Under the pieces are notes generated by a model that was not told the origin of the DNA, made no database searches, and saw nothing but the letters and a program-made list of their open reading frames with translations. A stretch of 64,000 nucleotides of DNA. Source: Pleurocapsa minor GSE-CHR-MK 17-07R. GTDB lineage: Bacteria; Chloroflexota; Anaerolineae; Aggregatilineales; Phototrophicaceae. The stretch's first letter is position 1; the number at the start of each line of letters is the position of its first letter. Location: assembly GCA_019359125.1 (NCBI GenBank), contig JAHHHY010000013.1, forward strand, positions 124,001 to 188,000, given 5' to 3'. The translations under genes were made by a program, and so were the position numbers. This document shows, one piece after another, positions 46,642-63,930 of the stretch.

Positions 46642-47019
46642 ATGGCCCGCGCAGAGTCGAAAATGATCATGGGCTATCTGCCCATCGAACCCAAACACCA
46701 CGCGGCGATCCTGTCGCTCGGCGCATCCGCCACGCCCGCCGTGCGCCTGCTCGACCCGTTCGCCGGGCAAGGCATGTTCCTGGAAGCCGCCGCCAAAGCC
46801 TGGAACGTCACCCCGTACGCCAACGAACTCGAAGGGGAACGGGCGGCAGCCTGCATCACCCGCTTCGGCGCGACGCAGGCTGTCCGCTGCGACGTGGAAC
46901 GCCTGGTCGCCAGCAACAACGCTTTCGGTGCGGCCTGGCTCAATCCACCGTTCCCAGCCACTGTTTTGTCTCAGGATCCTCAGACCACTGTTCGTACAGC
47001 GCAATGTGGTCACGGCTGA
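46642..47019 (+). pseudogene. Truncated DUF6094-type SAM-dependent DNA methylase gene
   Basis: The frame gives 125 residues. The first 104 match the start of DUF6094 methylases: MARAESKMIMGYLPIEPKHH, the SAM site LLDPFAGQGMFLEAAA near 34, and the catalytic WLNPPF near 98. The sequence then departs into unrelated residues (PATVLSQDPQTT) and stops, so about two thirds of the protein is missing. The break, near 46945-46955, coincides with an inverted GNAT-gene fragment. DUF6094 proteins normally lie in plasmids and integrative elements beside PRTRC genes, and a PRTRC C gene follows here. Confidence 0.8.
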
Positions 47020-49609: not shown

Positions 49610-50013
49610 CTATGCTCACCCATCTCGACTGGCGACCGGTCATCCTGCTCAAGATCGTGCGCTCGCCCTTCGGCGGGTGGGGCGGGCTGTCGGTCAAGCG
49701 GGCCTATCTGGCGGTCGCCGACGGTCAGCTGCTGCTGGCCGACTGGACGCTGGAGGCAGCCGAACGCGCGCGTAACCTGGTCTGCCCGACCGGCTGGGCG
49801 CTGCATGAACTGCCCAAAAGTTCGTTTCGCCTGACCGGTCGCGGGCGGACCGTGCTCCCGTCCGGCACCTGGATCGTCTCGTATACCGATGCCGTCTTCA
49901 CGCTGTATCAGGACGCAGGCGCTGCCTTCGCCCGCCTGACCGCCGAAATCGACCGACGCCCAACGAACCCCGCGCTGCTGTCCGCCCTGCAGCACCTCAT
50001 CCAACTGCTCTAG
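49606..50013 (+). CDS. Unrecognised protein (mobile-region cluster, second gene)
   Basis: 135 residues. It begins MTMLTHLDWRPVILLKIVRS and has alternating hydrophobic strands (RAYLAVADGQLLLADW and GTWIVSYTDAVFTLYQ), then a C-terminal helix rich in Leu. No catalytic motif is evident. It is coupled to the previous gene and 20 bases from the next. Confidence 0.6.
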   Translation: MTMLTHLDWRPVILLKIVRSPFGGWGGLSVKRAYLAVADGQLLLADWTLEAAERARNLVCPTGWALHELPKSSFRLTGRGRTVLPSGTWIVSYTDAVFTLYQDAGAAFARLTAEIDRRPTNPALLSALQHLIQLL

Positions 50014-50033: not shown

Positions 50034-50651
50034 ATGACGCTTGATCCGAATGCCGCTGCCAGCCAGCGGTATCATGACCGCTTTGATGTCAGCCTGTACA
50101 ACCCGATTGGCGAGTTTGTCGCCTCCAACCTGAATGCCAACCGCGACGATGCGCGCGTGGTCGACCTGATGGTCGCGGTGCAGAACGCTGCCCTGGAGCT
50201 GTGCGGGGATGAGCGTCACGCCGGCGCGTGGCACCGACTGGCCGTCTGCTGTGGCCGCAGCTTCCTGAGCACGCACACCATTGATGCGATCTGGCGCTTC
50301 CTGCGCGCCTTCAGCGACAACGACACGCGGCTGGATGACTTCGAGGCGACCGCCAAAGGCATGCTGCTGGCATATCGCGCACTCGACGAGTTGAAGGCGG
50401 CGACCGCCCATGCCAACGGCGTGCATGGCTGGCACGGACGCATGGCCTACGACCTGCTCGCCGCGGTCGAGCTGTTCACGGGCGCTGCGAACGCGCTGCT
50501 GGCTCATGAGGACGAGACTTACATCCGCGAGAAGCTTCAATCGGCGCTGCATCGGGTCACCGGCGCGCTGTACGAGGGCATTCGTCACAGCGACCAGCCC
50601 GCGTTGTTCGACTTCCGGAGCACCTACTTCCCCAGTGTGCGTGACCGCTGA
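50034..50651 (+). CDS. Unrecognised helical protein (mobile-region cluster, third gene)
   Basis: 205 residues, almost entirely predicted helix: YNPIGEFVASNLNANRDDARVVDLM and later blocks with regular Ala/Leu spacing. AAAGGA precedes the ATG. No known domain is seen. Together with the two preceding genes it forms a three-gene operon that could encode element-specific functions; a DNA-binding or regulatory role cannot be shown. Confidence 0.65.
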   Translation: MTLDPNAAASQRYHDRFDVSLYNPIGEFVASNLNANRDDARVVDLMVAVQNAALELCGDERHAGAWHRLAVCCGRSFLSTHTIDAIWRFLRAFSDNDTRLDDFEATAKGMLLAYRALDELKAATAHANGVHGWHGRMAYDLLAAVELFTGAANALLAHEDETYIREKLQSALHRVTGALYEGIRHSDQPALFDFRSTYFPSVRDR

Positions 50652-51170
50652 GGGGATCAATCTCAACGCATACCCTTTGTTCAGTCTCCGGGCGAGCCAC
50701 CATCCTCATGCTGACGGGGGTATCGGGCTGTCACGCTCAGTGTGCCTTGCTCATGCCGATCGTCTCGACCCGCATGGCGTGCTTCCCCCACAAGGGAGCT
50801 TGTCCCGCTCCGTGCAGGCTGCCTGCCGATGACGCGCTGGTCTTCCCCCTGAGCGCAAGCTGTGAGCTGTCTTGACGAATCCCCTGAATGGACTGCGTAC
50901 GCCAGTGATCCTCCGGCGCGGGCTTCACATCCAGCGGGCCAGACAGGTGCCGATTTGATTCTGACCACGCTAAGCAGGCGCAGCAGCAGGTCAACCCCGC
51001 GGGCGGGGTCGCTTTCGGCGTTTTCTCCGGGCTTGTGCCGCTTCGCTCACCGAAAACGCCGAGCGCCTTTCAGGTGACCAGCCGCTTCGACGCGCCTGCT
51101 TTTGAGTGGGTCAGAAATCGGCACCGGGCCGATGGATAGCGAAAGCGCGTCAGCGCGAAGGAGTAACATC
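50652..51170 (+). other. Gene-free stretch of 519 bp with hairpins before ssb
   Basis: No recognised gene lies here. Near its right end, ACCCCG (50994-50999) pairs with CGGGGT (51004-51009). TCGGCGTTTTC (51015-51025) pairs perfectly with GAAAACGCCGA (51052-51062). It could be a structured leader for ssb or part of an element boundary. The motif TGCGTACGCCA near 50893 recurs near 60368. Confidence 0.55.
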
Positions 51171-51560
51171 ATGGGTACGAGCCTCAACATGCAGGTGACG
51201 GGTTTCGTGGGCAGTGATCCGCAGGTGCGTCAGGTGGGTGAGCAGACCGTCGCGTCGTTTTCGGTGGCCGTCAGCCGCAAGAACCGCAGCGGCGACAAGC
51301 ACACGGTGTGGGTGCGCGTGAATGCCTGGAACAAGCTGGCCGAGATCGCCGGGCAGTACGTGCGCAAGGGGTCGCTGGTGCAGGTGACGGCCGAGTGGCT
51401 GCGTCCGTCGGCGTGGATGGACCAGAGCGGCACGCCTCAGCCGAGCCTGGACATCGACGCCAACCGTCTGGTGCTGCTGGACCGCCTCGACAGCGCCGAT
51501 GCATCCGAGGAAGATGCTGCCGCGCCCGCCGAAGCCGAGTTCCGTAACATTCCGTTCTAA
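51171..51560 (+). CDS. ssb: Single-stranded DNA-binding protein
   Basis: 129 residues with one OB fold: MQVTGFVGSDPQVRQVGEQTVASFSVAVS, then a lysine/arginine-rich loop, then VWVRVNAWNKLAEIAGQYVRKGSLVQVTAEW. The C-terminus is acidic and ends FRNIPF, like the DxPF tip that recruits partner proteins, but less acidic. I chose the ATG at 51171, preceded by AAGGAG; upstream in-frame ATGs lack support. It is shorter than chromosomal SSB, in keeping with plasmid or element versions. A GC-rich terminator follows. Confidence 0.9.
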   Translation: MGTSLNMQVTGFVGSDPQVRQVGEQTVASFSVAVSRKNRSGDKHTVWVRVNAWNKLAEIAGQYVRKGSLVQVTAEWLRPSAWMDQSGTPQPSLDIDANRLVLLDRLDSADASEEDAAAPAEAEFRNIPF

Positions 51561-51871: not shown

Positions 51872-51944
51872 GGGCCCGGGCGGGATTCGAACCCGCGATT
51901 TCACTCTTAGCAGGAGGGCGCCTTATCCACTAGGCTACCGGGCC
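51872..51944 (-). tRNA. Class I tRNA with GCU anticodon (Ser codons) on an Arg-like body
   Basis: Read on the minus strand the RNA folds perfectly in acceptor (GGCCCGG/CCGGGCC), D-arm (GCCT/AGGC), and T-arm (GCGGG/CCCGC with TTCGAAT loop). The anticodon stem CCCTC/GAGTG has one C-U mismatch. The loop is CTGCTAA, so the anticodon is GCU, which reads AGC/AGU serine codons. But the variable loop is five bases, not the long arm of serine tRNAs. A20, C35 and U36, the main arginyl-tRNA-synthetase identity bases, are present. The discriminator base is C and no CCA is encoded. It may be functional, mis-specifying, or a decayed tRNA-Arg(CCU) with a C34 to G change. Confidence 0.75.
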
Positions 51945-54705: not shown

Positions 54706-57700
54706 TCACAATCGACCTTTCCACGCGGCGAAATGCTCGGCCAGGATGTTGGTGACCGCATTCTCATGCTGGATGCGCCCGGTGAGGATGACGACCGGCG
54801 CGTGGCGGATGACGGCCCGGAACCGGGCATAGATTTTTGGGCGGACGATGACGCTGATCATGCCCGCCTCGTCTTCCAGCGTGAGGAAATGAAAGCCCTT
54901 GGCGGTGGGCGGGGCCTGATGCATCACCAGCAGGCCGACCACCTGCGCCCACGCGCCATCTTTCAACCCCGCCAGGCGGTCGCTGAAGACGATGCGCTGT
55001 TCCTCCAGCGCGGCCCGGTGGCGCGCCAGCGGATGCTGACCGTGGGCGAAACCCACCGCGCCCGCCTCCATGTATTGGGCTTCGTCGGCGCTGACGCCGG
55101 GCAGTGCAACCGGTTCATTGTGGGCGGCCAGCGGCAGGGGCGTGCGCTGCCAGGCTTCGATTTCCCCAAGCTGCCACAACAGGGCGCGACGCTCGCCCCA
55201 GGCATCCATCGCCCCGGCCAGGATGAGCGCCTCGACCAGTCCGCGCGCCAAGCGCACGCGGGCGCAGAAATCGCGCAGGTCCGCAAACGGGCGACTGCCC
55301 CGCGCCGTCACAATCGCGTCGGCCTGCTCGCCCAGGCCCTTCACCAGCGACAGCCCCAGATGGATATGGGGACCGTCGGTCGTCGACCGCGCCGCGCTGC
55401 GGTTGATATCGACGCCGTGCACAGTCAGGCCGTGCCGCTTGGCATCGTTGACGATGATGCTTTCCGACCAGAAGCCCATCGGCTGATTGTTGAGCAGCGC
55501 CGCGGCAAACTCAGCCGGATGGTACAGCTTCAGCCAGGCAGAGCGGTAGACGATGACGGCGAAGCTGGCCGCGTGGCTTTTGGCAAACGAGTAGCCGGCG
55601 AACGCGCGCAGCTTGTCGAAAATCAGCTCGGCCGTCTCAGGCGCGATGCCGCGCTCAACCGCGCCGGTCAGGAAAGCCGGACGGAAGGTTTGCAGCGCGG
55701 TTTCCGGGTCTTTCGAGCCCAGCGCGCGGCGCAACAGCTCGCCCTGGCCGGGCGTGAATCCGGCGGCATCGCGGGCGACCTTGAGCACCTGCTCCTGAAA
55801 CAGGATCACGCCGAGCGTTTCGCCCAGCGCCGGTTCCAGCAGCGGATGGAAACAGTCGACCGCCTCGACGCCATCGCGGCGGCGCAGGTACGGATGGACC
55901 ATATTGCCCTGCACCGGGCCCGGGCGAATCAATGAAATGCTGATGACCAGATCGTTGAAAGCGCGCGGCTTCAGGCGCGGCAGCACCTGCATCTGCGCGT
56001 GCGACTCGACCTGAAAGACGCCGACCGTATCGGCGCGGCAAATCATCTCGTACACGGCCGGGTCGTCGCAGGTCAGGCCGTCGAACGTGAAGGCGGGGTC
56101 GTGCGCCCGGATGAGCGCGGCGCAGTCGGCCAGCACCGAGAGCATGCGCAGGCCGAGAATGTCGATCTTGATCAGGCCCATATCTTCCAGCCCGTCCTTG
56201 TCCCACTGCACGACGTAACGGTCGGGCATGGTGGCCGGTTCAGTGGGGACACGCTGCGACAGCGGGGCAGCGCTGATGACCATGCCTCCGTTGTGGATGC
56301 CCAGGTGGCGCGGCAGCCGGTCGATCTGGCCGGTCAGGTCGGTGATCTGCCGCCAGATCGGATTGTCGAGCTGAGTGCCCAGCACCTCGCGCAGGGCGGC
56401 GGAATGCGAGACGTCGCGCGCCTGGTAGGTGTCGAGCGCCGATGCCACGTGTTCGAGGATTTCCAGCGGCAGGCCAAGCGCCTTGCCCACATCGCGGACG
56501 GCGCTGCGGGCGCGAAACGTGCTGAAGGTGCAGGCCATGGCCGCGCTGGCATGCCCGTATTTGCGATACACGTACTGGATGACTTCTTCCCTGCGCGCCG
56601 CATCGAAGTCGATATCGATGTCGGGCACGACGCGGCGTTCGGCGGACAGGAAGCGCTCGAAGACCAGTCCGTGATCGAAAGGATGAATAGGCGAGATGCC
56701 CAGCCGCCAGGCGACCAGCGAATTGGCCGCGCTGCCGCGTCCCTGACACAGGATGCCCTGCTCACGGGCATAGCGCACGATGTCCCACACGACCAGGAAG
56801 TAATTCGACAGCCCGGCGGCGCGGATGACAGCCAGCTCGTGCGCCAGCTGGGCCTGCTCACGCTCGGTCAGGCCGCCCGCGCTGCACAGGTGGCGCAGGT
56901 AGGCGTCGGCGTCCATGCCCGGCGGCGTGGGAATGAGCGGCAGGGTTTGCAGCGCGTCACCGAGCACGAAGGTACAGCGCGCCGCAATCTCGCCCGTCCG
57001 CTCCAGCGCGCCGGGAAAGTCGCGGAACAGCGGCGCCAGCTCGGCGGCTGATTTCAGGGAGCGCTCGCTGTTCGGATACAGCGTGCCGGCATGGTCGAGC
57101 GGCGTTTTTTCGCGGATGGCCAGCAGCACATCATGCAGCCGGTGCCCTGCCTGTTCGGCATAGTGGACATTGTTGGTCGCTACGACTGGCAGGCGCAGCG
57201 CCCGCGCCAAGTCAGCACGGCGGAGATTCAGCGCATGGTCGTCCGGCCGCCGATGGTGCTGCATCTCGATGTAGAGATTATCTGCGCCGAACAGGTCGCG
57301 CAGGTGCGCCCCGTGGCGCTGCGCGCCGCTCATGTCACCGCGCATGATGGCATCGGTCACGCGGCCGCGACGGCAGCCGGACAGCGCGATCAGCCCGGCG
57401 GCGTGCCCCACCAGCAGGTCGTCATCCGACAGGCAGGCTTCCCCCTTGGGCGCATGGTGGCGGGCGGCGCTGATGAGCGCGCACAGATTGGCCCAGCCGC
57501 GCGCATCCTGAACCAGCAGCGTCAGGTGGCTGTGGTCGTGCAGGGTGAGTTCGGCGCCAAAGATGGCATGGATGCCAGCGGCGCGGGCGGCACGGACGAG
57601 TTCCGGCGCGGAATAGAGCGCGTCATGCTCGGTCAGGGAGAGGGCGGGCATGTCGAGCGCCGCCGCACGCTGGACGAGCGCCTCGGGCGTGGAGGCCCCA

Positions 57701-57747
57701 TCGAGCAGGCTGTAGCACGAGTGCGCGTGCAGTTCGACGTAGGCCAT
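54706..57747 (-). CDS. dnaE2: Error-prone DNA polymerase DnaE2 (ImuC)
   Basis: 1013 residues. The PHP domain starts YVELHAHSCYSLLDGASTPE. The polymerase core has the catalytic PDIDIDFDAARREEVIQYV near residue 375 and IKIDILGLRMLSVL with the third acidic residue. YSFAKSHAASFAVIVYRSAWLK follows, and an OB fold (VVGLLVMHQAPPTAKGFHFLTLEDEAGMISV) lies near the C-terminus. DnaE2 copies damaged DNA with ImuB as clamp-binding partner. It is the last gene of the imuA-imuB-DUF6504-dnaE2 operon, starting three bases after the DUF6504 stop. Location on a mobilizable region is unusual and likely transferred. Confidence 0.96.
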   Translation of the reverse strand: MAYVELHAHSCYSLLDGASTPEALVQRAAALDMPALSLTEHDALYSAPELVRAARAAGIHAIFGAELTLHDHSHLTLLVQDARGWANLCALISAARHHAPKGEACLSDDDLLVGHAAGLIALSGCRRGRVTDAIMRGDMSGAQRHGAHLRDLFGADNLYIEMQHHRRPDDHALNLRRADLARALRLPVVATNNVHYAEQAGHRLHDVLLAIREKTPLDHAGTLYPNSERSLKSAAELAPLFRDFPGALERTGEIAARCTFVLGDALQTLPLIPTPPGMDADAYLRHLCSAGGLTEREQAQLAHELAVIRAAGLSNYFLVVWDIVRYAREQGILCQGRGSAANSLVAWRLGISPIHPFDHGLVFERFLSAERRVVPDIDIDFDAARREEVIQYVYRKYGHASAAMACTFSTFRARSAVRDVGKALGLPLEILEHVASALDTYQARDVSHSAALREVLGTQLDNPIWRQITDLTGQIDRLPRHLGIHNGGMVISAAPLSQRVPTEPATMPDRYVVQWDKDGLEDMGLIKIDILGLRMLSVLADCAALIRAHDPAFTFDGLTCDDPAVYEMICRADTVGVFQVESHAQMQVLPRLKPRAFNDLVISISLIRPGPVQGNMVHPYLRRRDGVEAVDCFHPLLEPALGETLGVILFQEQVLKVARDAAGFTPGQGELLRRALGSKDPETALQTFRPAFLTGAVERGIAPETAELIFDKLRAFAGYSFAKSHAASFAVIVYRSAWLKLYHPAEFAAALLNNQPMGFWSESIIVNDAKRHGLTVHGVDINRSAARSTTDGPHIHLGLSLVKGLGEQADAIVTARGSRPFADLRDFCARVRLARGLVEALILAGAMDAWGERRALLWQLGEIEAWQRTPLPLAAHNEPVALPGVSADEAQYMEAGAVGFAHGQHPLARHRAALEEQRIVFSDRLAGLKDGAWAQVVGLLVMHQAPPTAKGFHFLTLEDEAGMISVIVRPKIYARFRAVIRHAPVVILTGRIQHENAVTNILAEHFAAWKGRL

Positions 57748-57749
57748 GG

Positions 57750-58001
57750 TCAGTCGTACACCTGGCTGAGCTGCCAGGTATCAGCGATCAGGTCATGATA
57801 GATCAGCGCGGCCAGTCCGGTGTCGGTGACGACGCGGTAGTAGTCGCGGCGGATGTGCCCTTTCCACCAGTGCATGTCGACCCGCCACTGATTGCTGATC
57901 TGCACGACCGTGTGCCGCTGCCCGCCCCAGGCGAACGCATGCGGGGCGTCGGCCTGCAGGGTGACGCGCAGGGAGACCGCCTCGCGCCACAGCCGCGTCA
58001 T
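57750..58001 (-). CDS. DUF6504-like small protein of the mutasome operon
   Basis: 83 residues: DAPHAFAWGGQRHTVVQISNQWRV, then WWKGHIRRDYYRVVTD, ending DTWQLSQVYD. It matches the DUF6504 layout of beta-strands with Trp-containing turns. Family members are found next to imuB/dnaE2 in several phyla and are sometimes fused to them. The function is unknown; an accessory of the mutasome is likely. It overlaps imuB by four bases and is three bases before dnaE2. Confidence 0.85.
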   Translation of the reverse strand: MTRLWREAVSLRVTLQADAPHAFAWGGQRHTVVQISNQWRVDMHWWKGHIRRDYYRVVTDTGLAALIYHDLIADTWQLSQVYD

Positions 58002-59170
58002 GCTGCTTCGATGGTTTCGAGCGTGAAGCTCAGGTCGGGCACGGTGGCCGGCTGGCGCACCACGGTGGAGAAGTACGACTCGCCATAGCGGGCGCTCACC
58101 CGCAGCAGCAGATCGGCCATATTTTCGGACGGGTCATCGCCAAACAGCGAGAGCTGCTGCGGCTTGACGGCCGCGAAAGCGCCTGCCTGCACGCTGATGG
58201 CCTGCACCGGCGCGTACACGATCATTTTGTCGAACAGGCCCAGCAGGCCGCGTCCGCAGGCCGCCGCTGAAGCATACGGCTCGTGCGGGTGGGCGATACG
58301 TTCCAGTTCGCCGCCGCCGTCCAGGCGCAGGGTGAGCACGAGTTCGCCGCATGAGCGCCCGGAGGCGGCCAGCGGCCCCATCAGCATGGCGGCGGCCGCA
58401 TGCAGGATGGAGCGGACGAGCTGCCCGTCCTCCAGCGGCGTGTCAAACGAGCGTTCAAACAGGGTATGTTCCGGCGGGCTGTAACAGGCGATGCGCGTGC
58501 TGTCCTCGCCGCTGGCCAGCCGGTGCAGGCGCGCGCCTTCGCGGCCAAACTGGGCGACCAGCGCGGCCCGCGACAGGACGGCCACCTGGCCGATGTGCGC
58601 CAGGCCAAACAGCGCCAGCCGCCGGGCGGTTTCCGCGCTGGCGGGCAGCAGCGCCGCGGGCTGCCCCGCGAGGAAGTCGACCGTGCGCGCCGCGTGGATG
58701 AGCCGCACATGGCCTGCTTCGGTTATCATCGCAGCGACCTTCGCCGTGAAGACATTCGCGGCCAGGCCGACTGAGGCGGCATAGCCTATCTGCGCGGCGA
58801 CGCCGATCATCTGGCGCGCCATGCCCTCACCGGCATCGGGACGTAGTCGGCCGAGGTCGAGCGTGATGAGGGCGGACTGCGCATCGCTGCGGACGAGGTG
58901 AAGATACTGGCTGAACTGGCTGAGCGACGCGATCAGCTTCTCGCGGGCGCGGCGCAGGACGCTGGGCTGGGCGAGGATCATGCGTGCCGCAGGACAGAGC
59001 GCGCGGGCACGGCTGGCGCTGACGCCGGGCTGAATCCCGGCCGCCTCGGCAGCAGCATTGACGGCCATTACCTCGCCGCGCGCCTTGCGATAGCGCACGA
59101 CGCAGGCAGGCTCGTCACCGGCGCAGAACACGGCTGTCGCAAAATACGGGATGCAGACGCAGGCAATCAT
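57998..59170 (-). CDS. imuB: ImuB, Y-family polymerase-like non-catalytic protein
   Basis: 390 residues. The fold follows Y-family polymerases: N-terminal MIACVCIPYFATAVFCAGDE, the finger region AAEAAGIQPGVSASRARALCPAA, and a little-finger-like C-terminus. The catalytic DxD near the N-terminus is replaced by CIPYF, and the second acidic pair (usually SIDE) is ITLDLGRL. It is therefore inactive as a polymerase, as expected for ImuB, which links DnaE2 to the sliding clamp. A clamp-binding QLSLF motif (QQLSLFGD) is present near residue 340. It overlaps imuA and DUF6504 genes by four bases each. Confidence 0.92.
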   Translation of the reverse strand: MIACVCIPYFATAVFCAGDEPACVVRYRKARGEVMAVNAAAEAAGIQPGVSASRARALCPAARMILAQPSVLRRAREKLIASLSQFSQYLHLVRSDAQSALITLDLGRLRPDAGEGMARQMIGVAAQIGYAASVGLAANVFTAKVAAMITEAGHVRLIHAARTVDFLAGQPAALLPASAETARRLALFGLAHIGQVAVLSRAALVAQFGREGARLHRLASGEDSTRIACYSPPEHTLFERSFDTPLEDGQLVRSILHAAAAMLMGPLAASGRSCGELVLTLRLDGGGELERIAHPHEPYASAAACGRGLLGLFDKMIVYAPVQAISVQAGAFAAVKPQQLSLFGDDPSENMADLLLRVSARYGESYFSTVVRQPATVPDLSFTLETIEAA

Positions 59171-59892
59171 CGGTCGGCACCTGCTTCCTGTCCCTCGAAG
59201 TACAGGTCGAGCAGCGCGCTGTGTCCCATGCCGTGGCGCCCTTTAAGGACCGAGACCGATGAGCGACAGCCGACCACGTCGCCGAAGCGATACAGCCAGT
59301 CCGCCCGTTTGACCAGCAGGCGCAGCCCGGCGGGGCTGGAGGCGATGGGGAGTGCCGAGGAACCAGTCGGCAGCAGCTCCAGCCGCAGCAGGACGCACTG
59401 GGCGTGCAGCAGAAAGCTGGTCAGGCGATACAGCCGGTCGGCATCGGCGGGCAGCTGGCCGACATCGAGCACGATGATGCCGATCTGCGCGCTGGCCAGC
59501 AGATCACGGGCCAGGTCGAGCGCGCGCGGCTCGTGTTCCGGATGGGCGAGGATGAGCCGATCGAGGGCGACGCCGCCGCGCGCGGCAGGTTCAGGCGCGA
59601 AGGTGCCATCCAGATCGATGTAGATCGCGTAGCGGTTGCTGGCCTGCGCCTGCTGGATGATGCGATAGGCCAGTGAGGTCATGCCTGAGGTCGGCCGCCC
59701 GAACAGCTCGGTCATGACGCCGACCGGGATGAGACCAGGGGCGAGCACGGCATCCAGATGAGGGAAACCGGTGGAGATGCCGCCTGGCCGCGCAGCGCGC
59801 AGCTCGGTCAGCGGACGCACGACGTCTCCCCCGAATTTCTGTTGCAGCGCATGAATGGCAGCTTCGAGGTGATGGGATTTTGTGTGGGTCAC
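59167..59892 (-). CDS. imuA: ImuA, RecA-fold mutasome protein
   Basis: 241 residues with a RecA-like core: ISTGFPHLDAVLAPGLIPVGVMTELFGRP, then a degenerate Walker A GRPTSGMTSL lacking the Lys, and a Walker B-like IGIIVLDVGQLP. The Lys loss suggests no ATP hydrolysis, or an altered one. ImuA is the first gene of the mutasome operon and bridges DnaE2 and ImuB. A candidate SOS-like box lies upstream at 59947-59958. Confidence 0.88.
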   Translation of the reverse strand: MTHTKSHHLEAAIHALQQKFGGDVVRPLTELRAARPGGISTGFPHLDAVLAPGLIPVGVMTELFGRPTSGMTSLAYRIIQQAQASNRYAIYIDLDGTFAPEPAARGGVALDRLILAHPEHEPRALDLARDLLASAQIGIIVLDVGQLPADADRLYRLTSFLLHAQCVLLRLELLPTGSSALPIASSPAGLRLLVKRADWLYRFGDVVGCRSSVSVLKGRHGMGHSALLDLYFEGQEAGADR

Positions 59893-59946
59893 GGGTCACC
59901 TGAGCCTGAGATTATAAACTCGTTTAACTTGTTACGGAAAATTAAC

Positions 59947-59958
59947 GCTCAAATGTTC
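59947..59958 (-). promoter_or_regulatory. Candidate damage-inducible box facing imuA
   Basis: The minus strand reads GAACATTTGAGC, 55 bases upstream of the imuA start. A near-identical copy (GAACGTTTGAGC) lies in the opposite orientation at 60036-60047. The GAAC-N4-GAGC layout resembles a degenerate LexA box of the GAAC-N4-GTTC type. A LexA role is inferred. Confidence 0.5.
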
Positions 59959-60035
59959 TACCTCACAGCATACGACAAAAGGGCTGGGGAATGGAAGGGG
60001 GCTGCGGTTCGAAGTTGGTTATAAATCTCGTCTTA

Positions 60036-60047
60036 GAACGTTTGAGC
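60036..60047 (+). promoter_or_regulatory. Second GAACRTTTGAGC box, facing the stem-loop array
   Basis: GAACGTTTGAGC, preceded by TA like its partner at 59947, is oriented rightward about 100 bases before the first stem-loop. Shared motif positions suggest coordinated control of the imu operon and a rightward transcript. No -10/-35 pair is convincing. Confidence 0.45.
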
Positions 60048-60146
60048 TGATTTTAGGTGAGGGATGTGCCTCTGAGCCTTTAGGACATAGCGGATGCCTA
60101 GGTGCGTTCGATGTCAGACATTTCTGCCCCGTTTTGCAGGGCGTCC

Positions 60147-60473
60147 GACCGGGTGTTCCGGTCAATGACTCATCCGCATCAGGCCCCGTGGCGCTGCCTT
60201 GCAGCAGCGCCGCATCGCGTAAGCGATGCCGAACCCACCCCGCCGTAATGCAGCCGTCGCAGACGGGCGCATTGGAGGCCTGCCGATCGCATGTTCAGTC
60301 CCACTGAATCATCGGCGGGGTGGGGTAGCCAGGTAAAACCTGGTCACCTCAGACGCCGGTGAGGGCTTGCGTACGCCACTCCGTGGCGCACCCACGCCGC
60401 ACCATGCGGTGCAGCGTGGCACGTGAGCGGCCCTGTCCCCGCTCACCGGACGCACCCCTTCGGCGTACGTCCG
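60147..60473 (+). ncRNA. Dense array of stem-loops; candidate structured RNA or oriT region
   Basis: At least nine perfect or near-perfect stems occur in 327 bases. GACCGG/CCGGTC (60147-60163). GGCGCTGC/GCAGCGCC (60190-60211). GCATCGC-GTAA-GCGATGC (60212-60229), a seven-pair stem closed by a GNRA tetraloop. CCCACCCCGCCG/CGGCGGGGTGGG (60234-60324), which encloses AATGC..GCATT with CCGTC/GACGG (60247-60273) and TTCAGT/ACTGAA (60294-60308). CCAGGT-AAA-ACCTGG (60329-60343). CGTACGCC/GGCGTACG (60370-60469), enclosing CCACGC..GCGTGG (60392-60419) and GTGAGCGG/CCGCTCAC (60423-60446). No protein frame explains it. It lies between imuA and the mobilisation genes. Confidence 0.55.
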
Positions 60474-60528
60474 AAAAGCATAATCCCATGAATTTCACAA
60501 TCCGGTCGGCAGGGCAGCCCCGCTGCTC

Positions 60529-60582
60529 TGAAATATTGCGCGGCAGCCATGAAATATTTCAGCCGTGGACTGCAATATTTCA
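60529..60582 (+). promoter_or_regulatory. Three evenly spaced GAAATATT operator sites before the RHH gene
   Basis: TGAAATATTGC (60529-60539), the palindrome TGAAATATTTCA (60550-60561) and GCAATATTTCA (60572-60582, inverted) have centres 22 bases apart, about two helical turns. The outer sites mirror each other around the central palindrome. This is the expected operator layout for the RHH protein encoded just downstream, and it may also serve the relaxosome. Confidence 0.8.
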
Positions 60583-60639
60583 TGGGTCGGCCATCTGCAC
60601 TCAGGCAAAATAATGCCAGTGCAGAATGTGGAATCGTCT

Positions 60640-61008
60640 ATGGCCACCAAAACCATCCGCCGCAGCATCAGCATGACCCCCGAAATGCACGACCTGCTGG
60701 CGCAGATTGCCGCCCGGCAGGGGCGCGACGTCAACCAGAATGACCTCATCCGCGAGGCGATTCGCCACTACCTGGACGCGCAGGCCGACATTATCGGCAG
60801 CCGACGCCACTTTCAGAAATCGCTTCAGGCGCGCATCGATACGTTGGAACACGCCCTCACCTTTCAGACGACCATCATCATCTGCCTGCTGGCCGAGATT
60901 CTGGCCGACGACACCGCCATCGACGAAGCCATCATCGCTGCCCGCCGCGATGGGCCGTCTCTGCTGGCCCGCATTGCCGCTGTACGCGACCTGAAGCCAG
61001 ATGCATGA
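60640..61008 (+). CDS. Ribbon-helix-helix (RHH/CopG-like) DNA-binding protein
   Basis: About 122 residues from the ATG at 60640. The RHH core is TIRRSISMTPEMHDLLAQIAARQG followed by NQNDLIREAIRHYLDAQ (ribbon, helix A, helix B). The C-terminal 65 residues are helical (HALTFQTTIIICLLAEIL) and may oligomerise. It overlaps the relaxase ATG by four bases, which suggests a relaxosome accessory protein (MobC/TraY-like) and autorepressor acting at the triple GAAATATT site. Upstream in-frame ATGs at 60613 and 60565 are possible starts. Confidence 0.87.
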   Translation: MATKTIRRSISMTPEMHDLLAQIAARQGRDVNQNDLIREAIRHYLDAQADIIGSRRHFQKSLQARIDTLEHALTFQTTIIICLLAEILADDTAIDEAIIAARRDGPSLLARIAAVRDLKPDA

Positions 61009-61643
61009 ATAAACCGATCATCATCCCGGACTGGGCCTACAAAAGCCCGAAACACAGCGGGCGCGGCAGCGGCAGGCAGGGCCTGAAAGCCACCCTCAAA
61101 TACCTCCAGTATCGCGACAAACGCAATAACCATCTGGCGCAGAACCCGGACTACGAGCGCTGGCACGACCGCGGCCTGGGCAAGTCGTATGGCGAAATCC
61201 TGAAGCAGTGCGACGCGCTGCAAAGCCAGCACGTGCTCGCCTGGACCTGGGTCGTCTCGCCCGCGCCGGATCTGATGGACCTGGTGCTGCCGCATGAGCG
61301 CCGCGAGCTGCTGTGCGAACTGACAGAGCGCGTTGTCGAGGATTACTACATGGAGCGCGGCCTCGACCTGCCCGAATACAGCTATGTCGTGCACACGGCA
61401 AAGACCAAAAGCAAAGACGGCCAGCCGCCGCAGGAACACCTGCACACGCACGTGGTGCTGCCCGGCACCGCGCCGTCGACCGCCGACCGACTGCCGGTTT
61501 ACAACAATGCGACCAAGGGGCACGACCGCCTGTTTCGCGAGATTGCCACGCAGCACTTCGCCGACCTGCTCGACGCGCGCGGCATCGACTGGCGGTCGCT
61601 GCGCGAAGAACCCGAACACGAACAGTCCCGTGATATTTCGTAG
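61005..61643 (+). CDS. Short HUH-type relaxase/mobilisation protein
   Basis: 212 residues. The three-His metal motif is HLHTHVVLPG near residue 148, the signature of MobA/MOBP-like nicking enzymes. An upstream YLQYRDKRN and a conserved Tyr candidate near the N-terminus (YKSPKH or YLQY) could form the DNA phosphotyrosine. It lacks the long C-terminal helicase or primase part of large relaxases, so it is either a minimal version or a truncated one. It is cotranscribed with the RHH protein and followed 29 bases later by the coupling protein. Confidence 0.82.
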   Translation: MNKPIIIPDWAYKSPKHSGRGSGRQGLKATLKYLQYRDKRNNHLAQNPDYERWHDRGLGKSYGEILKQCDALQSQHVLAWTWVVSPAPDLMDLVLPHERRELLCELTERVVEDYYMERGLDLPEYSYVVHTAKTKSKDGQPPQEHLHTHVVLPGTAPSTADRLPVYNNATKGHDRLFREIATQHFADLLDARGIDWRSLREEPEHEQSRDIS

Positions 61644-61672: not shown

Positions 61673-63664
61673 ATGATGTACTGGTTGTTCACGGACGGGC
61701 GCGAGCTGCTGACGCCGCTGCTGGTTCCGCTGCTGTGCGGCGCGCCCGTCCTGCTGCTGCTGACCGCGCTCGTGTCCGGGGTGGGCATCCGCCGCACCAA
61801 TGATGAACATGCCAAGCCCGGGCTGCTTCAGCGGACGATGCTCATCGTCACTTATGCTGTCTCATTGCTGACGATGACAGCGCTTTACATGACGCTCACA
61901 GGTGACATTGCCGTCCAGCGCGGACGCTCAAATACCAGCGACCTGGTCGAGATGATCGTCGGCGCGCCGAACAGCATCAATACGATGCGTCTGTTCATGT
62001 TCGGCATGTTTCTGGCGTTCATCCTCATGCTGACTGCGCTCACGGCCAATCAACTGCTGCGGGACGGTGGCTGGCTGCGCGAGCGCCTCGACCGCCTGCG
62101 CACGCCAGCGGTCAAACGGGGAGCGTTGGGGTCGTCACACTTCTGCACCCTGCGCGAGTATCGCCGCTTCCGCCGAACGGATGCCGAAGGCGTGACCCTG
62201 CTGGGCGCATTCTGGGGCGAGCAGAAGCGCCGTCTCGACGTCGGAACCGGACTGTTCTGCCTGAGCGGTGAAGATGCAGCCCGCGGACTGCTCACGCTCG
62301 GCGGTCCGGGATCGGGCAAGACGCAGGGCATCATCCTGCCCGTCATCGCCGACCGGATGATGTCCGGGCATTCGCTGGTTGTCGCTGACCCGCAGGGCGA
62401 AATCACCGCGCACATCCTCAGATACGCCGCCGTGACCCGCCACCTGGTCGTCGTGCATGATCCGACCAGCCCGGCCGGGCCGCGCTACAACCTGGCCGAA
62501 GGCATCGGCACGGTCTCGGACGCCCGCGCGATTGCTGACGTGCTGGTGCCATCGGCCGCCGGAGATAACCGTTTCTGGACCGACAGCGCCGCCGCGCTGC
62601 TGGCCGCCTGCCTGATCCGCTTCCCCAACCTGGGCGCGATCTACAACGCGATGAACGACACCAAAGGGCTGGCCAGCGCGCTCACGGCGCAGAAAGACGA
62701 TGCTGCGCTGTTGGCGAACAGCTTCGTCGCCTCGGTCGGGTCGGACGGCAAAGTCGCCTCGAACGTGATCGCCACGCTGGCGACCGCGCTGACTGGCTGG
62801 GCATCGACCGACGTGCGCGCCAACACCTGCGCGTCCGACTTCGACGCCGAGCTGATCGTGTCGCAGCCGACAGTCGTGGTGCTGACCTGTCCGGGCAGGA
62901 TGCGCGCCGTATATGCCTCGTACCTGGGGGCGACGCTGCGCAAGCTCATGCTCGACCTCGACACGATCGGCGAGCGTAACAAGGGGCCGCTGCCGACGCC
63001 GGTCGGCATCATCCTCGACGAATTCCCGACGCTGGGCAAATTAGACAGCCTGGTGGCGGATGTCAACCTGGTGCGCAAGCGGCGCATCAGCATCCTGATC
63101 GGCGCGCAGACTAAAGGGCAGTTCGAGATGATCTACGGCCGCGAGGGCACGCAGGCGCTGCTGACCGGTCTGGCGACGCAGGTGATTTACGGCGGCTGCG
63201 ATGCCGACACAGCCGAGTTTTACAGCCGGGCGAGCGGCACGGCGACGACTGATGCCAACACCGACGATCCGAACAGCGCGCTGCGCCAGCGTCCGCTGCT
63301 GACGGTCGATGAGGTGATCACGCCGCAGTCGGGCAACTGCACCATTTTCGCGCGTTATGTGGAAGCGGGCTTCGCGACCCAGGTGATCCTCAATGCCCGG
63401 CTGACGCGCTTCTACGAGCGCATCGACTGGAAGGCGCGGCTGGCGGCGCAGGGAGACGCCGAGCCGCTGCTGCTGGAGCGCGGGATGGAGGCCGACATGG
63501 AGGAACCGGTGGAACCCGCCTCAAGCATCGACCTGGCTGCACGGGCGAAGCTGGAAGACATTCGCCGACGGACGGCGCAGCGGGCGGGCGGGTCGGTGCA
63601 GATGGTCAGCCTGGAGAGTATGCGGGCAAAGGACGGCAATAGAGAGATGGAGCGGGATGAATGA
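61673..63664 (+). CDS. Type IV coupling protein (VirD4/TraG-like)
   Basis: 663 residues. Three hydrophobic segments near 8-35, 50-75 and 100-125 anchor it in the membrane. Walker A is GGPGSGKTQGI near residue 212 and Walker B is VGIILDEFPTLGKLDSL near 447. The TraM-recognition/TraG-C domain (ISILIGAQTKGQFEMIYG) follows. It couples the relaxase-DNA complex to a type IV secretion channel and hydrolyses ATP. No mating-channel genes lie in the window, so the element may be mobilizable rather than self-transmissible. Its stop overlaps the HU-like gene. Confidence 0.94.
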   Translation: MMYWLFTDGRELLTPLLVPLLCGAPVLLLLTALVSGVGIRRTNDEHAKPGLLQRTMLIVTYAVSLLTMTALYMTLTGDIAVQRGRSNTSDLVEMIVGAPNSINTMRLFMFGMFLAFILMLTALTANQLLRDGGWLRERLDRLRTPAVKRGALGSSHFCTLREYRRFRRTDAEGVTLLGAFWGEQKRRLDVGTGLFCLSGEDAARGLLTLGGPGSGKTQGIILPVIADRMMSGHSLVVADPQGEITAHILRYAAVTRHLVVVHDPTSPAGPRYNLAEGIGTVSDARAIADVLVPSAAGDNRFWTDSAAALLAACLIRFPNLGAIYNAMNDTKGLASALTAQKDDAALLANSFVASVGSDGKVASNVIATLATALTGWASTDVRANTCASDFDAELIVSQPTVVVLTCPGRMRAVYASYLGATLRKLMLDLDTIGERNKGPLPTPVGIILDEFPTLGKLDSLVADVNLVRKRRISILIGAQTKGQFEMIYGREGTQALLTGLATQVIYGGCDADTAEFYSRASGTATTDANTDDPNSALRQRPLLTVDEVITPQSGNCTIFARYVEAGFATQVILNARLTRFYERIDWKARLAAQGDAEPLLLERGMEADMEEPVEPASSIDLAARAKLEDIRRRTAQRAGGSVQMVSLESMRAKDGNREMERDE

Positions 63665-63930
63665 GCCTGAACAAAAAGAAGATGGTGCGCGAGATCGGAC
63701 GGCGCACGCGGCTGAGCAACCGCGACGTGGAGCGCGTCATTGAGACGCTGGTCGAAGTGTGGACGGAGGAACTGGTTGCTGGTGGGCGCATCGAGATCGA
63801 GCATTTTCTGGTGCTGGAGACGCAAACAATCGAGCGCGCCGCGAATCGACTGCTGCCCGCGCGTAGGTTTAGGCGGGTGACGGTGCGCGGGAGCAAAAGG
63901 CTGAAAGTCACGCTCAATCCGGGGAAATAG
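63661..63930 (+). CDS. HU/IHF-family DNA-bending protein
   Basis: 89 residues with the HU layout: NKKKMVREIGRRTRLSNRDVERVIETLVEVW, the strand-turn GGRIEIEHFLVLETQ and the basic C-terminal FRRVTVRGSKRLKVTLNPGK in place of the usual RNPxT arm. The Gly-Arg (GGRIEIEHF) and the arm differ from chromosomal HU (usual GFGTF-like), so it is a divergent or element-specific version. It overlaps the coupling protein gene by four bases and would help bend oriT or organise the element. Confidence 0.85.
   Translation: MSLNKKKMVREIGRRTRLSNRDVERVIETLVEVWTEELVAGGRIEIEHFLVLETQTIERAANRLLPARRFRRVTVRGSKRLKVTLNPGK

Follow-up and report, generated by a model that had tools for sequence, protein, structure and literature searches.

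A nine-stem element with a covarying core, linked to one relaxase family in an order of Anaerolineae

What is the dense run of short stems that lies between imuA and the mobilisation genes of a Chloroflexota genome? The window (the whole stretch of DNA analysed, 64,000 nucleotides of contig JAHHHY010000013.1 from Pleurocapsa minor GSE-CHR-MK 17-07R, order Aggregatilineales) carries this run at 60147–60473, and a reading made from the sequence alone had proposed that it was a large structured RNA, an origin of transfer (oriT) or both. We found that the nine-stem element is one copy of an undescribed family whose stems are kept while their letters change. Its core helices are maintained by compensatory change in more than 100 copies, and the element is tied to one relaxase family, with fixed orientation. 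A literature search of open-licence papers found no description of such an element; PMC9689679 names an Aggregatilinea strain and has other genes as its subject.

The element and its covarying core

In DNA searches, copy-to-copy similarity spanned ~60189 to ~60479, and the left flanks in an alignment of 12 full-length copies (A1) were unrelated. The conserved element is therefore narrower than originally described: 60190–60473 (~285 nt) is conserved, while the first hairpin of the run, at 60147–60163, lies outside because similarity among copies begins only at ~60189. Nine helices, P1–P9, were read in the window copy:

60190–60473, minus probably the folded strand (on evidence from the core P4–P8): whole nine-stem element, from homology boundaries, covariation and strand counts
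60190–60211, minus: P1 hairpin with plus-strand loop CTTGCA, from alignment and folds
60212–60229, minus: P2 hairpin, whose plus-strand GTAA loop is unconserved (12 different loops in 12 copies)
60234–60324, minus: P3, a closing stem (60234–60245 with 60313–60324) around small hairpins, from folding and by eye
60328–60344, minus: P4 hairpin with a near-invariant loop, TAAAA on plus and TTTTA on minus, from covariation and loop conservation
60345–60361, minus: P5 hairpin CACC/GGTG with a conserved loop, from covariation and loop conservation
60362–60370, no strand assigned: linker with G 60364 invariant and T 60367 near-invariant, from column conservation
60371–60391, minus: P6 hairpin, from covariation
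60392–60419, minus: P7 hairpin, from covariation
60423–60446, minus: P8 hairpin, from covariation
60447–60473, minus: P9 hairpin, the right end of the element and outside the covariance model, from the 12-copy alignment and the minus-strand fold

The array was present where the sequence-only reading had placed it and folded far beyond chance. RNA folding of 60147–60473 gave z-scores of −5.8 (plus) and −6.35 (minus), equalled by 0/100 shuffles, and DNA folding of 60185–60475 gave −7.7 (plus) and −8.3 (minus), equalled by 0/200. A lack of covariation together with a folding energy like that of shuffled sequence had been named beforehand as the outcome that would count against the reading, and the opposite was found for both. 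The minus-strand DNA fold was a row of hairpins (P9, P8, P7, P6, P5, P4) followed by the branched P3 and then P2 and P1. The nest proposed at 60234–60324 was borne out as P3, the sequence of which diverges strongly between groups, yet a stem of such kind persists (folding and by eye). A second enclosing stem proposed at 60370–60469 appeared in the plus-strand DNA fold, where one longer stem wraps P6–P8, whereas P6, P7 and P8 are separate hairpins in both the covarying structure and the minus-strand fold. The sole open reading frame (ORF) of at least 80 aa overlapping 60190–60473 was at 60359–60613 (84 aa, plus).

A DNA search matched the element in 17/61 genomes, the window's own included, several of them with multiple copies. 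We built a covariance model from an alignment of 18 copies (A3) and a hand structure of P4–P8 with 38 pairs, hereafter the core. It matched 45/154 genomes of the same order, again including the window's own, with up to 11 matches per genome. Two opposite-strand matches that overlapped plus-strand copies (G004) were subtracted from 138, leaving 136 copies. Two larger alignments held 63 distinct rows (A4) and 66 distinct rows, mostly other copies (A6).

Aligning homologues for covariation, as the sequence-only reading had suggested, gave a very strong signal. Among 85 predicted pairs in A1, 26 were double-change pairs. In A3, 91.5% of cells were paired and 15/38 pairs had changed on both sides, with 73 double-change cells against a shuffle mean of 21 (0/500 shuffles reached 73) and 32–46% of cells paired when partners were slid. 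Both-side change reached 37/38 pairs in A4 (495 cells with double changes, versus 129 for shuffles) and 38/38 in A6, a count that took all 66 distinct rows, including five second or opposite-strand matches in the same loci. The P5 pairs were constant in A3 and changed on both sides in A4 and A6. The alignments were fitted to the covariance model and so are biased towards it; the slid and shuffled controls fell far below, and across alignments slid partners paired 30–47% of cells versus 91–92% for the true ones. Outside the core, P1, P2 and the branched P3 were also read, by folding and by eye, in divergent copies with little common sequence, a reading that draws on folds listed among 34 loci. 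At window 60355–60366, a three-pair pseudoknot could form between GGC in the linker and the near-invariant GCC in the loop of P5; these bases hardly vary, so covariation is unable to test it.

Searches of Rfam 15 with the window at gathering score, with 59850–60700 at E 10 and with eight divergent loci at E 1 returned only tRNAs and sub-threshold matches (neisseria_FSE, rox1, ctRNA_p42d and Yar_3), which we took as chance. A sample of 400 genomes of the phylum gave a match in the window's own genome alone, a weak negative since 8 candidates were scored per genome listed. Neither the element nor the relaxase matched a plasmid collection. In a viral collection, one contig had an exact match to the core pattern (L154, 234–267; IMG/VR, 22.6 kb), at the edge of the fetched stretch; the one adjoining ORF tested had no Pfam match, and its phage nature is that assigned by the viral collection alone.

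Two further loci held partial copies. Another contig of the window's genome (L003, 2496–2618) carried a further copy, with 92% identity across 100 bp (P4–P7) and lacking P8–P9 by eye; a gene for a large serine recombinase follows ~500 bp later. At L007 (3448–5480), the left half of an element stood as an orphan, followed by an IS110 transposase gene (PF01548) and then by a complete copy with different P1–P3, which precedes the same relaxase operon. We considered this split copy as an intron with an internal ORF and rejected the idea: the insert carries the IS110 transposase gene, and what lies to its right is a second element, complete and equipped with its own P1–P3.

Linkage to a relaxase and its neighbours

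The mobilisation genes lie to the right of the element, and the window has the following features around it:

51102–51560, plus: single-stranded DNA-binding protein (SSB; PF00436), 8.6 kb left of the element and kin to SSBs beside other copies
60529–60582, no strand assigned: three 12-bp repeats at 21-bp spacing beside the ribbon-helix-helix (RHH) gene, probably the RHH operator
60565–61008, plus: RHH protein (PF01402), probably a relaxosome accessory protein or autoregulator
61005–61643, plus: predicted HUH relaxase without Pfam or NCBIfam match, from predicted fold and histidines
61673–63664, plus: VirD4/TraG-like coupling protein (PF02534)
63661–63930, plus: HU-like DNA-binding protein (PF00216)

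The small protein at 61005–61643 has, as modelled, the fold of an HUH relaxase. It had no Pfam or NCBIfam match at E 0.01, and no relaxase was among its matches to PDB sequences. Its structure model (predicted local distance difference test score, pLDDT, 83.8) aligned to pCU1 TraI with Z 13.0 over 158 residues (root-mean-square deviation 3.1), followed in the ranking by TrwC, F TraI, MobM and R1162 MobA, with the best non-relaxase at Z 7.5; a Foldseek match of the model had E 7e-5. H130, H147 and H149 were invariant in 17 rows. Contigs bearing related relaxases were labelled Anaerolineae, Anaerolineaceae, Aggregatilineales or Chloroflexi.

Across the 154 genomes, a profile of this relaxase matched 50 and the element 45, with both in 43 (Fisher p 3e-28). 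The relaxase was on the same contig in at least 89/136 copies and within 12 kb in at least 87. Among the matches listed, the nearest relaxase within 12 kb was on the element's strand in 87/87. It stood to the right of the element in 73 of these, at 187–760 bp in 58 and at 1.3–10.5 kb in 15, and to the left in 14, of which 12 had the element directly behind the gene, 194–235 bp from the core. The core was kept beside relaxases as little as ~37% identical. In four copies behind their relaxase (L113, L168, L173 and L174), weak opposite-strand matches to the core model overlapped or adjoined the main match.

We surveyed neighbouring genes at 50 loci, chosen from those fetched out of the 136 copies. 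RHH, relaxase and coupling-protein genes were on plus to the right of the element, the gene linkage expected of an oriT, and to this extent the earlier guess of a transfer-related site was a good one, given the tie to mobilisation genes in many genomes. An SSB gene was within 12 kb in 15/50 loci; in 14 it lay left of the element on plus, transcribed towards it, within 1.2 kb in 12 of them (the others being L117 and the window), and in L107 it was on the right. RepB_primase (PF16793) was in a cluster present to the right of 5 copies, and a Prim-Pol gene (PF09250) followed the L111 copy, itself behind the relaxase. AT-rich repeats similar to those at 60529–60582 were seen by eye in other loci.

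To the left of the element, the window holds relatives of the left-hand genes of other loci at 49618–49968, 50037–50648 and 51159–51488, with a partial one at 46642–46953. Between these and the element, directly left of the latter, is a translesion cassette of dnaE2, imuB and imuA (54706–59892, minus), and a tRNA-Ser gene (51872–51944, minus) sits between this cassette and the SSB gene. The element copy at L036, from another family of the order, likewise has imuA and imuB relatives as neighbours. A figure legend in an excerpt of a leading-region paper mentions umuC/umuD homologues (PMC11541004). At L104, the cargo is on the other side: type I restriction genes (HsdM_N) lie between the element and the relaxase.

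The folding strand and the role of the element

On the folding strand of real RNA, G-U pairs exceed A-C near-pairs. Counting strictly, that is, only near-pairs flanked by Watson-Crick pairs, the core had 6 G-T and 63 A-C on the plus strand (67 rows), and the lean held as similar rows were removed stepwise (G-T/A-C 4/55, 4/40 and 3/22, the last with 30 rows at <75% identity). Sixty further copies, excluding the five second or opposite-strand rows of A6 and also L111 and L113, gave 12 G-T and 58 A-C. Column shuffles predicted near equality (152 and 165). Row by row, A-C exceeded G-T in 39 rows of A4, with the reverse in 5 and 23 ties, and in 36 rows of A6, with the reverse in 8 and 18 ties. Alignment-based G-T/A-C counts were 5/17 on plus and 25/4 on minus in A3, and 21/76 and 101/18 in A4. 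RNase P of the same order, as a control, gave 278/9 on the true strand and 151/80 on the wrong one. A greedy stem finder run on 63 elements (plus G-T 38, A-C 75) was dropped for the alignment-based counts because its RNase P control (28/30) failed, having found mostly chance stems.

These counts suggest that the minus strand is the folding strand of the core P4–P8. The original argument ran the other way, from the plus-strand GTAA loop as a GNRA tetraloop of a plus-strand RNA, and it was supported on neither point: that P2 loop is particular to the window copy, and the core counts in A3, A4 and the further copies point to minus.

A structured noncoding RNA might start near P9, be transcribed leftwards off the minus strand, and regulate or assist the mobilisation genes. 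The covariation is of an RNA-like kind, the wobble lean of the core has the same direction as that of RNase P, and minus-strand GNRA loops are mostly GTGA. However, the consensus scan found no −35/−10 pair in the window copy and no sigma-70-type promoter in 60100–60700 (other promoter types were not sought), and minus-strand promoter scores to the right of 50 copies showed no enrichment over shuffled sequence. The G-T/A-T ratio on minus was 0.21 in A4 versus 0.46 in RNase P, which is compatible with DNA or with a wobble-poor RNA and is not decisive. Such an RNA would also run antisense between plus-strand genes in L107, L111, L112 and L113, and it would lack an Rfam match. We consider this explanation rather unlikely; if true, it would make the element a new large RNA class linked to mobilisation.

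A double-stranded role, as a cruciform, two-way terminator or recombination site, seems improbable to us. It would suit P1–P3, which have no strand lean, and the L104 copy, which lies between convergent genes. The strand lean of the core is unexpected if both strands fold alike, the single terminator-like site in 60100–60700 (60658–60673) is outside the element, and an empty site for the two stand-alone copies (L066 and L071) was not found in 15 genomes of the genus.

The explanation that we favour, with a probability of roughly 0.53, is that the element acts in cis, as a signal formed when single-stranded DNA folds, in a family of mobilisable or conjugative elements from one order of Anaerolineae. 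The layout here, SSB, element, RHH, relaxase and coupling protein, is like that of F, in which those genes have the transferred strand as their template. This likeness would make minus the transferred strand, and the wobble lean of the core independently picks minus; we therefore favour a single-strand signal. It takes as observed the fold, the covariation and strand lean of the core, and the relaxase linkage with its common orientation. HUH relaxase action, in conjugative transfer or rolling-circle copying, would make the mobile element single-stranded, and the minus strand, the template strand of the relaxase operon, would fold into the nine-stem array. A protein may then recognise the conserved P4 and P5 loops and the linker. 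The most likely use would be as an oriT-linked region or one like a single-strand origin (sso) or single-strand initiation site (ssi), that serves to process the transferred strand or to prime its complement, perhaps with primases encoded on some of these mobile elements. Single-stranded DNA over RNA, the identity of the transferred strand, protein recognition, and priming versus nicking are the steps that we infer.

A narrower form of this explanation makes the element the oriT itself, with the relaxase recognising one hairpin and nicking a conserved unpaired base of the minus strand, and the rest serving as a relaxosome scaffold. The fixed orientation, the usually regular distance to the relaxase, the invariant unpaired bases in and beside P4–P5, and a predicted relaxase fold like those of TraI, TrwC, MobM and MobA would all agree with it. 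However, the element is in some loci 6–10 kb away from the relaxase and in others directly follows it, the AT-rich repeats stay by the RHH gene in loci that have no element nearby or a distant one (L014, L016, L018 and L020, by eye), and a nic region needs far fewer than nine stems. We regard the narrower form as unlikely; a site that varies in position (just before, just behind or 6–10 kb off) but keeps its direction is more readily explained as a single-strand origin than as an oriT.

Several observations weigh against a folded single-strand signal. Among the matches listed, 47/136 copies had no relaxase on their contig, many contigs being short. Counts on the RNAalifold structure of A1 had more G-T than A-C on both strands (plus 61/14, minus 58/16), and RNAalifold favours G-T on whichever strand is supplied. 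The absence of strand lean in P1–P3 (G-T 39, A-C 35; 115 copies) and the weak lean in the 12 copies that follow the relaxase (G-T 5, A-C 10) limit the strand assignment, as does the relatedness of the rows, which makes near-pair counts non-independent events. GNRA made up 22/142 four-base loops on minus, where composition predicts 5.7, and 15 of them were GTGA, which could hint at RNA. Transferred-strand polarity varies between systems, so an F-like polarity is an analogy, and neither a nic motif nor a primase or RNA-polymerase site was identified in the element.

Comparison with known systems

What is known of single-stranded DNA signals for transfer and rolling-circle copying usually comes from individual plasmids. 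Here, the covariation in more than 100 diverged copies is sufficient to define the helices of the core and suggests the folding strand. The role of a folded transferred strand thus becomes testable pair by pair. The element also serves as a marker for mobile elements in Chloroflexota and for their relaxase family, which no Pfam or NCBIfam model covers, and the covariance model can locate further carriers.

One close likeness in structure and placement is to an sso. According to excerpts of the ICEBs1 study, sso1 is ~200 bp with several stem-loops, is orientation-specific and lies directly behind the relaxase gene nicK, and its authors expect structure to count besides or instead of sequence (PMC4595007). 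The 12 copies just behind the relaxase gene are placed as sso1 is after nicK. Unlike sso1, the element has nine stems in ~285 nt, is mostly before the relaxase and comes from another phylum, and the two were compared by structure and placement, not by sequence.

Frpo/ssi of F-like plasmids, as described in excerpts of two papers, is a folded element of the transferred strand, ~330 bp long, in a region with SSB genes (PMC7690428, PMC11541004). Our element, when close to an SSB gene, follows its 3′ end instead of preceding it, and the scan of the window copy found no −35/−10 pair. We rejected a Frpo-type promoter for SSB: wherever an SSB gene comes within 1.2 kb (12 loci), it is on the left and reads towards the element, and such a promoter is unfitting because the element sits behind the gene. 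Other genes might be targets.

The oriT regions of the HUH relaxases TraI, TrwC and MobM lie beside RHH, relaxase and coupling-protein genes and have hairpins with conserved unpaired bases. The element shares these gene neighbours, the hairpins and the conserved unpaired bases, and it differs in its much larger architecture, its variable position and the lack of a known nic site. With the large structured bacterial RNAs of Rfam it shares extensive covariation and a multi-branched form. It differs from them in that neither an Rfam match nor a promoter signal was found, in being poorer in wobble pairs than RNase P of the same order and in its tie to a relaxase. A bolder and less likely reading sees this ~285-nt architecture as the equivalent, in single-stranded DNA, of a large structured RNA: a folded scaffold that the transferred strand of a whole family of mobile elements would form, and that would be a class of its own beside sso, Frpo and oriT. 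In functional kind, the element is most likely a new variety of single-strand signal, and its structure matches no family tested.
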